From assembly GCF_001557215.1 (NCBI RefSeq), contig NZ_LSJM01000367.1:1-26743 (forward strand): DNA of 26,743 bases. Direction: 5' to 3'. Within the stretch, counting starts at the first letter, position 1. Every line of letters starts with the position of its first letter. The DNA comes from Sphingomonas sp. CCH9-E2. Its GTDB lineage: Bacteria > Pseudomonadota > Alphaproteobacteria > Sphingomonadales > Sphingomonadaceae. The position numbers and the translations under genes were made by a program. Shown piece by piece: positions 19,534-22,119 of this stretch. The notes under the pieces are model-generated. The model saw only the letters and a program-made list of their open reading frames with translations. It had not been told where the DNA came from and searched no databases.

Positions 19534-19851
19534 TCAGCGGCAGCGCTTGCCGCTGCGCTCGATCTCGCGTCCAGCGACGGCGCCAGCGGCGGCACCCAGC
19601 AGCGTGCCGACCGTACGGTCGCCGCGCGTGTCGATCGTGCGGCCGACCAGCGCGCCTGCGACGCCGCCAATCACCAGACCGGTCGTACCATCCGGCTTGC
19701 GGCAATAACGGCGGCCATCACGGCCGTTCCACTCACGATAGCTGTAGCGCTTCTTCTTCGAATGCGCCTGCGCATCGCCCATGTTCGGCAGAACCACCGT
19801 GGCCGGAACGGCCAGCGAAGCGGCGCCCAGCGCCAGCATCAGGTTACGCAT
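19534..19851 (-). CDS. Glycine-zipper 2TM-domain envelope protein (copy 2)
   Basis: This 105-residue protein has a signal-like N-terminus (MRNLMLALGAASLAVPATVV) ending near GDAQAHS, so it is probably secreted rather than a lipoprotein. A basic Tyr-rich segment KKKRYSYREWNG, the block DGRRYCRKPDGTTG, the glycine zipper LVIGGVAGALVGRTI and LLGAAAGAVAGREIERSGKRCR follow. I chose ATG 19851, which is preceded by GGAGTGAG; the 24-residue extension upstream has no ribosome binding site or signal character. It is a tandem paralogue of the 19051-19431 gene. The pattern is typical of small sphingomonad envelope proteins; the function is unknown. Confidence 0.8.
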   Translation of the reverse strand: MRNLMLALGAASLAVPATVVLPNMGDAQAHSKKKRYSYREWNGRDGRRYCRKPDGTTGLVIGGVAGALVGRTIDTRGDRTVGTLLGAAAGAVAGREIERSGKRCR

Positions 19852-19959
19852 TTTACTCACTCCATCTTCCTGAACTCGCGGGTAAAAACGACGGCCGGTC
19901 GGGCGGGGTTTCATGAACGTCACATTTCGTGCAGTTCATCTGGCATGCAGGAATCGCGC

Positions 19960-20376
19960 ATGCACATCGAACGCCTTGGCCTGGCTCCTCATCCGGAAGG
20001 CGGCTGGTACAAGGAAACATGGCGTTCTCAACCACTTGACCCCGGCACACGGTCGCCGGGAACCGCGATCCTGTTCCTGCTCGAACAGGGGCAGAAGTCG
20101 CATTGGCACCGCGTCGATGCCGACGAACTGTGGCTGTGGCACGCCGGATCGCCGCTCGATCTGATGATCGCCGATGCGGCGGACGCCAATCCGGTGACGA
20201 TCGCGCTTGGCGGAGACGTGCTCGGCGGCTACCAGCCGCAGGCGCGCGTCCCGACGAATCGCTGGCAGGCGGCGGATGCGCATCGCGGCTGGGCGCTGGT
20301 CAGCTGCATCGTCGTCCCGGGCTTCGACTTTGCCGGGTTCGAACTCGCCCCGCCCGACTGGTCCCCGACCCGCTGA
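19960..20376 (+). CDS. DUF985-family cupin protein
   Basis: This is a 138-residue protein. It opens with LGLAPHPEGGWYKETWRS, the hallmark of the DUF985 cupins, then has TAILFLLEQGQKSHWHRVDADELWLWHAG (metal-binding-type His pair in SHWHRVDADE) and WQAADAHRGWALVSCIVVPGFDFAGFEL. It is a single beta-barrel of normal family length. Members are uncharacterised; some are annotated as sugar epimerase-like. I chose ATG 19960 because AGGA lies 7 nt before it; an ATG at 19945 is possible and would add five residues. It is transcribed toward the non-coding region that follows and shows no terminator of its own. Confidence 0.88.
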   Translation: MHIERLGLAPHPEGGWYKETWRSQPLDPGTRSPGTAILFLLEQGQKSHWHRVDADELWLWHAGSPLDLMIADAADANPVTIALGGDVLGGYQPQARVPTNRWQAADAHRGWALVSCIVVPGFDFAGFELAPPDWSPTR

Positions 20377-20385
20377 ATCGCTTCC

Positions 20386-20405
20386 CGTGATTCACGTTAT
20401 CCACA
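20386..20405. promoter_or_regulatory. Palindrome CGTGATTCACG joined to a consensus DnaA box
   Basis: An 11-bp palindrome CGTGA-T-TCACG (20386-20396) is followed without a gap by TTATCCACA (20397-20405), which matches the DnaA box consensus exactly. It sits just after the cupin stop and upstream of the structured region. A protein-binding site is plausible. A replication origin is not supported, as no box cluster or AT-rich unwinding region is seen. Confidence 0.35.
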
Positions 20406-20479
20406 GATCGTAACCGTCGATCGCCGCTTCGCCCGACTCGAAAACCGTGACAGCATCATGGGGCAGGCAGATGAGGCCG

Positions 20480-21156
20480 CGGCGGGAAACCAAAGCGAAA
20501 TCAGATGTTTGTCACGGCTCGACACGTGCAGGTGCCTTCGGGAAACCGCATGGATCGGGACGGGGACGCCACCCCGGGAAACCGCAGGGACGATGTTCGC
20601 ATCGGCCAGGCGTGAACGGAACGGACAGGCGTCCAATGGCACCTCCCGGCCTTGTGTCGGAGGTGACAGGCGGAAGGGCAGGGGCCGATGCTTTCGGGCA
20701 GCGGGCCGGACCGGAAGCCATGGACGCAAAGCCCGTCTTCGGACCGGGTGGAGCGGGTTGCAGCGGAGCGGCGGCGCCTTCGGGCAAGGCCAGGAAGAGG
20801 CAGCCACAGCCGCGACGGGACCAAAGCCTTCGGGCAAAGGAACCGGCGCGAGGTGATCGGATGAAACGACCCTTCGGGGATCGTATCGATCGATGACCGG
20901 ACCGTGATGCCGGATCGCCGCAAGGCGCGAAGGGATCGCAAGGACATCGAGGCGGGAACGCGGCTCTTCGGAACCGCCCCCGTCCCGGTGACCGGCCAAC
21001 GGACGCAACGCGACCGTTGGAACGCAGGGTTCCGCAGTCCCTTGCCGGAAGCGGAACACTGCCTGCCGCCGCCGCGGCGCGCCCGTCTCCCGGATGGGCA
21101 AGCGAGCGGATGGCGACACCGGAGGGCTGGCGGAGACGCCGGCCCTCTTTTGGTTT
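20480..21156 (+). ncRNA. Candidate large structured non-coding RNA
   Basis: This stretch has no credible protein gene but many hairpins that read on the plus strand. Perfect stems include 20591-20604 (5 bp, UUCG loop), 20640-20665 (7 bp), 20996-21020 (7 bp) and 21024-21062 (4 bp, one G-A mismatch, 7 bp). UUCG-capped hairpins include 20732-20748, 20776-20785, 20826-20835, 20867-20883 and 20960-20977. CTTCGG occurs six times and its complement CCGAAG not once, as expected for RNA made from this strand only. GGGAAACCGCA occurs twice (20540 and 20576) and GGGAAACC once more at 20484. The region ends in an intrinsic terminator with a GAGA loop. It lacks tmRNA, RNase P or SRP RNA landmarks. The 5' end is a guess. 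Long ORFs on either strand here have Arg/Pro/Gly-rich, low-complexity translations. Confidence 0.6.
21122..21156 (+). terminator. Strong intrinsic terminator at the end of the RNA candidate
   Basis: An 11-bp stem (21122-21132 with 21137-21147, one G-T wobble) closes a GAGA tetraloop and is followed directly by TTTTGGTTT. This is a textbook rho-independent terminator on the plus strand, 746 bp after the cupin stop and not at the end of any convincing ORF. Confidence 0.85.
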
Positions 21157-21177
21157 CGGGGAGCGCACGCCTTCTCC

Positions 21178-21198
21178 CTCTCCCCTTTAAGGGGAGAG
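21178..21198. repeat. Short GC-rich palindrome
   Basis: CTCTCCCC and GGGGAGAG form an 8-bp stem around TTTAA. It resembles short purine/pyrimidine palindromes scattered in sphingomonad intergenic DNA. No separate function is visible. Confidence 0.4.
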
Positions 21199-21221
21199 AG
21201 GGCAATGCCCCCACAACAACC

Positions 21222-21327
21222 GTCACCCCGGTCCCCGTGCCGGGGTCCACCCCGCCGCACATCCGGCGCTTCAGCCTCTTGCATCGCGCCCGCCCCCCGG
21301 TGGACCCCGGAACAAGTCCGCGGTGAC
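21222..21327. repeat. Inverted pair of REP-like palindromes (BIME-like)
   Basis: Two about 30-bp elements, at 21222-21251 and 21299-21327, share the ends GTCACC and GGTCCACC in opposite orientation. Each can fold on its CCCCGG/CCGGGG core. They are separated by 47 bp and lie between the RNA candidate and the permease gene, like REP pairs seen elsewhere in bacteria. Confidence 0.65.
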
Positions 21328-21375
21328 GACAAGCGGGCTGGACGCAGAACGGCCACGCGCTACGCCTCAATCCCG

Positions 21376-22119
21376 ATGTCCATCGACTCCCTCCACCTCG
21401 CGCTCGCCGCCTGCATGTTCCTCGGCGCGCTGCTCTATTCCACCGTCGGCCATGGCGGGGCGTCGTCCTATATCGCGCTGATGGCGCTGTTCAGCGTGCC
21501 GGTGGCGGTGATGCGGCCGACCGCGCTGGTCCTCAACCTGATCGTCGCGACGCTGGGATCGATGCGATACGCGCGCGCGGGGCTGTTCCGCTGGCGCACG
21601 CTGTGGCCGTTCCTGGTTGGCGCGATCCCCGCCGCGTTCGTCGGCGGCACGATCCATGTGCCCCCCGAACTCTACCGCCCGGCGATGGGCGCGGTGCTGC
21701 TCTTCTCGGCTGTCCGCATGCTGTGGCCGCGCGAGCTGAAGGCAGAGCGGGAGTGGCATGATCCGCCTTTATGGGTCGCGATCCTCGCCGGGATCGGGCT
21801 TGGCCTGCTCGCCGGGCTCACGGGGACCGGCGGCGGCATCTTCCTCTCGCCGCTCTTGTTGTTCCTCGCCTGGTCCGCCCCCAAGCCGGCATCGGGCGTC
21901 GTGGCGGTGTTCATCCTCGCCAACTCCGCCGCCGGCCTCGCCGGAAACCTCGCCTCGGTCGGCAGCCTGCCGCCCGAACTCCCGCTCTACGCGATCGCAG
22001 TGCTGGCGGGCGCCGTGGTCGGCACCACGCTCGGCATCAAGCTACCGCAAAAGTGGATCCTGCGCGCCCTCGGCCTCGTCCTGCTGGTCGCCAGCGCGAA
22101 GCTGTTCGGGGTGTATTGA
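21376..22119 (+). CDS. TSUP (TauE/SafE) family membrane permease
   Basis: This 247-residue protein has about seven to eight membrane helices. The paired TSUP motifs are visible in each half: YSTVGHGGASSYIALMALFSVP near the N-terminus and LLAGLTGTGGGIFLSPLLLFLAW in the middle. The latter is followed by PKPASGVVAVFILANSAAGLAGN. Family members move sulfite, sulfonates or other small organic anions; the substrate here is unknown. I chose ATG 21376, since upstream in-frame sequence is repeat-derived. The last 78 bp overlap the 3' end of the DUF805 gene on the other strand. Confidence 0.88.
   Translation: MSIDSLHLALAACMFLGALLYSTVGHGGASSYIALMALFSVPVAVMRPTALVLNLIVATLGSMRYARAGLFRWRTLWPFLVGAIPAAFVGGTIHVPPELYRPAMGAVLLFSAVRMLWPRELKAEREWHDPPLWVAILAGIGLGLLAGLTGTGGGIFLSPLLLFLAWSAPKPASGVVAVFILANSAAGLAGNLASVGSLPPELPLYAIAVLAGAVVGTTLGIKLPQKWILRALGLVLLVASAKLFGVY

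Follow-up and report, generated by a model that had tools for sequence, protein, structure and literature searches.

The intergenic stretch between the cupin_5 and TauE/TSUP genes of this Sphingomonas-like host encodes a structured non-coding RNA of approximately 690 nt, which runs from a predicted start to a T-run (20462..21151, plus strand; positions refer to the window, the whole 26,743 nt stretch of DNA analysed). The reading that we favour, and consider fairly probable, is that of a trans-acting regulatory RNA that has both a promoter and a terminator of its own and is timed by DnaA and by GcrA/CcrM, which would represent a new RNA family of Sphingomonas and probably of the wider Sphingomonadales. 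Bacteria have few large structured RNAs. The present one, unmatched in Rfam, is apparently kept as a single copy across much of a genus that is well sampled, and probably also beyond it. Its promoter, which is nearly unique in the genome and bears DnaA and methylation sites, gives a hint at its purpose that is unusually clear for an orphan RNA. If confirmed, this would open up RNA-level control of the sphingomonad cell cycle.

The element evolves as an RNA

The plus strand of positions 20470-21156 folded at -338.3 kcal/mol with a z-score of -3.54, which was equalled by none of 20 shuffles, whereas the minus strand of the same positions gave a z-score of -1.66, equalled by one of 20 shuffles; the strand bias is therefore real. 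This bears out the initial annotation, which had proposed a structured non-coding RNA with hairpins that are strand-biased and go beyond what GC-rich spacer DNA would give. That annotation had placed an RNA of about 650 nt at 20480..21156, and the RNA is indeed located there, but its 5′ end lies nearer to 20462 and its length nearer to 690 nt. It had overlooked the promoter at approximately 20428-20456 with its GANTC site, the DnaA box at 20397-20405 and the anchoring of the RNA beside a Gly-zipper gene.

Substitutions between the element and its counterparts in five relatives, 82-92% identical, were spread evenly over the three codon positions (17/20/19 in comparison with L001, 31/24/24 with L002, 25/23/20 with L003, 40/40/38 with L139 and 43/35/44 with L142, where L numbers denote homologous loci), and the indels in the same comparisons were mostly of 1 nt. 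The cupin gene served as control and displayed the opposite pattern, with 8/9/31, 9/10/33 and 8/12/40 substitutions at the three codon positions in comparison with L001, L002 and L003, respectively. Two other readings, an overlooked protein gene or a GC-rich spacer in which hairpins arise by chance, could be proposed since a high GC content yields stable folds and long open frames, and such frames are indeed present on both strands of the element. The three open frames tested had no match in Pfam, and a protein gene was rejected on the absence of a third-position excess, the mostly 1 nt indels and the opposite behaviour of the cupin control. Together with the conservation in many species and the covariation described below, the flat codon positions and 1 nt indels already contradict both the spacer and the missed gene, to which we give next to no credence. 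The earlier statement that this region holds no believable protein was thus upheld, as the codon-like substitution pattern by which it could have been overturned was absent in all five comparisons, and the element is, judged by these patterns, one that evolves as an RNA and not as a protein gene.

The RNA ends in an intrinsic terminator (21121..21151, plus strand), with a stem of 12 pairs (21121-21132 with 21137-21148), a GAGA loop of the GNRA type and a T-run; the loop and T-run had been described correctly, but the stem had been given as 11 pairs. A terminator scan of positions 19800-21800 found this single terminator-like site where 1.3 would be expected by chance, and the conservation of the terminator in homologous RNAs (helix 4 of the alignment A3 discussed below, with 99.7% of cells paired) is therefore better evidence than the scan itself.

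Compensatory changes in the 5′ and 3′ domains

Subgroup alignments of the homologous RNAs, which range from approximately 240 to 820 nt, revealed a common architecture of a conserved 5′ block, a middle of very variable length, a conserved 3′ block and the terminator. The 5′ domain opens with helix P1 (20462..20513), in which 20462-20469 pairs with 20506-20513, and for which 32 distinct strand pairs were found among 36 sequences, with 3/36 having at most 4 pairs. It encloses the P2 hairpin (20484..20491) with a GAAA tetraloop, which has 2 pairs in the window and 0 to 6 in homologues, with 2/36 unpaired. In 5000 permutations none was as good for P1, nor for P2 (mean 2.92 pairs versus 1.91 when permuted), although these permutations ignore kinship and the figures hence overstate independence. 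The P3 hairpin (20531..20547, GGUgCC-UUCG-GGaaACC) follows, with a loop varying between UUCG, GCAA, ACCC and others.

The length-variable middle (20569..21023) consists of hairpins capped by UUCG and GNRA loops. Repeated GCGCAAGC mini-hairpins of the GNRA type were observed in the middles of L007, L016, L018 and L022, and such mini-hairpins seem to account for much of the length variation of the RNA.

The 3′ domain starts with P4 (21029..21057), where 21029-21035 pairs with 21051-21057 and the loop bears the motif CCCUUGCCGG (21039-21048), which is missing in some divergent homologues. P4 was named by eye from the sequences before being counted, and RNAalifold does not predict it on alignment A2, which was not fitted to a model; on the model-fitted alignment A3 (where it is helix 1) double changes were present in 6/6 pairs, with 81.9% of cells paired. 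It is followed by a long-range helix (21065..21115, helices 2 and 3 of A3), the GCCGCC ... GGCGAC core, which encloses a variable hairpin. In A3 as a whole, 92.7% of cells pair, a share that fell to 80.7% on shuffling the columns and to 48.4% or less on sliding the partners, and 21/26 pairs have changes on both sides; this alignment (70 rows, 66 distinct, 3 of them spurious terminators) was fitted to the model and leans towards it. With MAFFT alignments not fitted to the model, RNAalifold found double changes in 10/15 pairs of the 5′ domain and 12/25 pairs of the 3′ domain, and the compensatory changes that the initial annotation had called for were thus present by either route.

Among the 234 pairs predicted over the full length of the six nearest copies, 147 were invariant, 18 changed on one side and 19 were compensatory, with 56 having at least one broken cell (the classes overlap), and the middle is therefore less firmly supported than the ends. 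The compensatory changes in the 5′ and 3′ helices are, as a pattern of substitution, those of a structured non-coding RNA. At the level of sequence comparison, the RNA is conserved together with its promoter region; covariation is present in its 5′ domain and in its 3′ core, and the middle varies in length. An alternative pairing of the 5′ and 3′ ends, of GGCAGGCA with UGCCUGCC near 21060, was noted in close relatives of the window and was not seen in most other groups. In the window and these relatives the first 8 nt (20462-20469) may pair either with the 3′ strand of P1 or with UGCCUGCC (21059-21066), which makes a switch possible.

The RNA is anchored beside a Gly-zipper gene

Three genes with Pfam domains surround the element: a divergent gene encoding a Gly-zipper 2TM protein (PF05433; 19537..19851, minus strand), the Cupin_5 (DUF985) gene (19960..20376, plus strand), the product of which is 93% identical to its counterpart in a Sphingomonas MAG, and the downstream TauE/TSUP gene (21376..22119, plus strand), the last two lying outside the RNA element. 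Given its position, the RNA could belong to one of the genes on either side, as a cis-acting TSUP leader or as the 3′ UTR of cupin. Among 33 loci identified with the RNA model, and thus picked independently of the cupin gene, the cupin gene was present in just 8 and TSUP was matched in 3, whereas the Gly-zipper gene was located upstream on the opposite strand in 31 (seven of 40 loci had been removed from this count: L112, L119, L127, L137, L138, L140 and L150). Of 80 loci gathered through the cupin gene, 37 carry the RNA downstream, as recognised by its conserved ends; all 37 have the Gly-zipper gene and 4 have a TSUP match. In L039 the RNA downstream of the cupin gene was found by the covariance model. 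This gene order indicates that the RNA is neither a TSUP leader nor a cupin tail, and a conserved terminator separates it from TSUP; the cis-acting reading is already contradicted and we consider it highly improbable. Across the homologous loci, the RNA is, by gene order, anchored beside the Gly-zipper gene.

Between the RNA terminator and TSUP (21237-21327) a unit like GTCACCCCGG...CCGGGGTCCACC occurs as an inverted pair, which resembles a dispersed intergenic repeat of sphingomonads.

Distribution within and beyond the genus

Matches were collected with R1, a covariance model built on the 3′ domain, which identified the 3′ core in 106 of 250 genomes sampled from the genus (E ≤ 1e-7), while in the other 144 genomes absence and divergence are not told apart. 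A second match was present in 4 of the 106 genomes, and the second matches inspected (L127, L186 and L187) were terminators of protein genes and not further copies of the RNA, which is, by this model, effectively single-copy per genome. A broader model (R2) matched 17 of 347 family-level genomes, with some overlap with the genus sample, and 4 of 289 class-level genomes. Covariance-model E-values are rough, and the limits of the family outside the genus were set by eye. When genomes were picked by locus name, 10/11 matched R1 at E ≤ 0.001, many of them weakly, with the match absent at this threshold from the Novosphingobium malaysiense genome of L043; with R2 at E ≤ 1e-5, 11/25 had a match, nearly all weak, and 14/25 had none.

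Twenty weak matches were inspected by eye, of which 13 resembled divergent copies of the RNA (L171-L175, L177-L183 and L188) and 7 resembled plain terminators after protein genes (L176, L184-L187, L189 and L190). The divergent copies include those in the genomes of Erythrobacter rubeus (L181) and E. ani (L182), weak matches with the same promoter layout, as well as L177, located after the end of an argininosuccinate synthase gene, and these three likely belong to the same RNA family. L127 and L150 were dropped as false model matches. A plasmid search by blastn gave no match.

A DnaA box and a GANTC site in the predicted promoter

The predicted start site and the -35 and -10 elements were assigned by eye. 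The extended -10 element, TG-A-CAGCAT (20448..20456), was recognised from an alignment of 37 sequences (A1) in which its T, G, A and T are invariant (columns T13, G14, A17 and T21), with deviations in L122 and L124, both outside this alignment. It has the form TGA-CANNNT and lies 17 bp after the -35 element, TTCGCC (20428..20433), which is TTGGTG or TTTGCG in many homologues. A scan of positions 19800-21800 for σ70 consensus promoters found none, with 0.1 expected. Upstream of P1, ahead of the extended -10 element, most groups have CTTGGYGCGACTCG or CTTTGCGCGACTCG, and the window has CTTCGCCCGACTCG.

A GANTC site (GACTC, 20435..20439), the CcrM-type methylation site, is located between the -35 and -10 elements at about -27/-28, and a DnaA box, TTATCCACA, is found at 20397..20405 (roughly positions -65 to -57 relative to the predicted start), the sole exact copy in the window, with 0.03 expected. 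DnaA boxes are conserved across the homologous loci, and sometimes tandem. In 79 loci the best upstream box was an exact TTATCCACA in 52 and had at most one mismatch in 78, and a GANTC followed within 75 nt of the box in 75, a proportion that was 14% in random windows and 24% in shuffles. In this count, which includes the 13 divergent loci picked by eye, the box was taken wherever the upstream stretch matched best and not at a fixed place, and twelve loci had been dropped as false matches (L127 and L150) or as duplicates and near-duplicates (L008, L009, L012, L014, L037, L112, L119, L137, L138 and L140). L125 and L173 were counted as lacking GANTC as a box away from the promoter had been chosen, but their promoters do have GACTC, and the site is absent from the promoter position in L130 and L172.

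The middle base of the site varies (GACTC, GAATC or GATTC) and its flanks diverge, while the site itself is kept; in L017, L030 and L031 the usual GANTC is lost and a GATTC is present approximately 6 bp further on. The window is depleted in GANTC, with 48 sites versus 129 expected. Three GANTC sites were noted within 65 nt upstream of the RNA (20375-20439) in this otherwise GANTC-poor window, and in L125 and L126 a second box, TTATCCACAG, is located within the body of the RNA.

The promoter pattern marks the RNA in many genomes of the genus

We searched the 250 genomes of the genus for the composite pattern TTATCCAC-N14-50-TTNGNNCGANTC, which was present in 95 genomes, once in each (overlaps merged), versus 5 matches by our own count for the reversed-pattern control. 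For 75 of the 95 sites a 3′-core match lay less than 2 kb downstream on the same strand, where 0.023 would be expected. The pattern was drawn from loci that are partly in the same 250 genomes; its recall is therefore circular in part, which does not apply to its near-uniqueness within each genome.

In the remaining 20 genomes with the pattern, 15 sites were examined, 11 of which had a downstream R2 match of at least 30 bits on the same strand; five of these (L193 and L199-L202) scored no more than 30-36 bits, as plain terminators can do too, and L193 and L199-L201 additionally show 5′ hairpins. The sites in L194, L203, L204 and L205 had no downstream RNA at the R2 threshold of 30 bits. In L194 and L203 a DnaA box is followed by a GANTC-bearing, -35-like region without the RNA; these two sites may precede a protein gene, and are possibly another replication-linked promoter.

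The evidence for the RNA is independent of how its promoter is read, and a housekeeping or stress function outside the cell cycle, with ordinary growth control and an incidental DnaA box and GANTC, would also be consistent with the two loci that have no GANTC (L130 and L172). Against such ordinary control stand the occurrence of the composite promoter just once per genome in 95/250 genomes, where it marks the RNA in 75, and the retention of GANTC despite its varying middle base in a window poor in this motif. We regard this alternative as possible but a good deal less probable than timed synthesis.

Proposed timing by DnaA and GcrA/CcrM

A GcrA domain is encoded in 13 of 14 genomes, the exception being a MAG (G001), and a RAMA domain of the CcrM type in all 14, although this domain, one that CcrM contains, is by itself not proof of the enzyme. 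The conserved GANTC between the -35 and -10 elements and the encoded GcrA and RAMA domains fit a predicted GcrA/CcrM-type promoter, and we infer, with fair support, that DnaA and GcrA/CcrM may time the synthesis of the RNA.

The conserved, sometimes tandem DnaA boxes would also suit a DNA element, either a DnaA-titrating or replication-control site, for which datA and DARS are the comparison, or a portion of an origin, the transcript then being a by-product. In the complete genome G006 the RNA is located at 3.56 Mb and the skew switch at 3.18-3.40 Mb, or possibly near 2.6 Mb, as estimated coarsely in this one genome from 20 sampled stretches of 20 kb. The RNA is probably not at the replication origin, and an origin-of-replication reading was tentatively rejected on this one coarse comparison. 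The compensatory changes in the helices and the conserved terminator indicate an RNA, and we consider a DNA element improbable.

For a timed regulatory RNA, we propose that RNA polymerase with σ70 would start near 20462 from the extended -10 promoter, and that DnaA bound at the upstream box and GcrA bound at the methylated or freshly hemimethylated GANTC would tie synthesis to the passage of the replication fork, with the transcript ending at the GNRA-loop terminator. The least certain steps are those thereafter, in which the RNA may act post-transcriptionally, either through base pairing by exposed loops, CCCUUGCCGG for example, or through a protein held by its core, with the middle hairpins as a length-tolerant spacer. 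Purine-rich ribosome-binding sites are conceivable pairing partners of the P4 loop CCCUUGCCGG, and a protein might be held by the GCCGCC/GGCGAC core. Since CCCUUGCCGG is missing in some divergent copies, a core that binds a protein, combined with a tolerant spacer, is no less likely than loop pairing. A more far-reaching version, which we put forward tentatively and think doubtful, is that of an order-wide RNA of the Sphingomonadales, several hundred nt in length, which is fired once per chromosome replication by DnaA and GcrA/CcrM at its promoter and feeds back on the cell cycle; if true, a core component of sphingomonad cell-cycle control would have been missed by protein-centred models.

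Comparison with known RNAs and cell-cycle promoters

A scan of the window with Rfam 15 at gathering thresholds gave two tRNAs only, both located elsewhere in the window, and a permissive scan of positions 20300-21400 (E ≤ 5) gave six matches, the best scoring 19.3 bits versus the 72.2 required. Scanning of 10 homologous loci detected only an unrelated cobalamin riboswitch (L021, 8044-8241, minus strand, 115 bits). The initial annotation had recognised no described family here and had found the landmarks of tmRNA, RNase P RNA, SRP RNA and 6S RNA absent, and the Rfam scans agree on both points. The element shares with RNase P RNA, alpha tmRNA and 6S RNA that these are stable non-coding RNAs of similar or smaller size, but each was rejected as its identity: RNase P RNA (RF00010) and alpha tmRNA (RF01849) were both found elsewhere in 10/10 genomes, with no tmRNA detected in the window by ARAGORN, and a 6S RNA candidate (RF00013) was found elsewhere in 9/10 genomes (E ≤ 0.001), in 3/10 above the gathering score. 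The SRP models of Rfam had no match in the window.

OLE, GOLLD, ROOL and HEARO are large structured bacterial non-coding RNAs of hundreds of nucleotides with multiple helices, from which the sphingomonad RNA differs in being unmatched in Rfam and in its own type of promoter, neighbouring gene and core. The titles and abstract openings of the open-access literature searched contained no description of the element, and the passages naming sphingomonads in PMC8632094, PMC11109978 and PMC2864571 likewise yielded nothing on it.

The closest parallels are found in the cell cycle of Caulobacter, where start sites with a GANTC between the -35 and -10 elements are described as being switched on at 40-60 min (PMC4287350). 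According to the same account, ctrA P1 has its GANTC at -28/-29, and podJ P2 has a GANTC at -24 and a DnaA motif at -82 (PMC4287350). The sphingomonad promoter resembles both in having a GANTC between the -35 and -10 elements, here at about -27/-28, and resembles podJ P2 also in its upstream DnaA motif, but ctrA P1 and podJ P2 drive protein genes, whereas its own predicted product is a large RNA. Within the Sphingomonadales, ctrA is reported as a likely target of GcrA on the basis of bioinformatic analysis (PMC7987155). Among RNAs, CcnA of Caulobacter crescentus (CCNA_R0094), described as located at the replication origin and presumably activated by CtrA (PMC8959179), is an alphaproteobacterial non-coding RNA tied to master cell-cycle regulators, and is unlike the sphingomonad RNA in that the latter has a promoter with a DnaA box and GANTC, a contrast drawn by description and not by alignment; the two are possible functional analogues.
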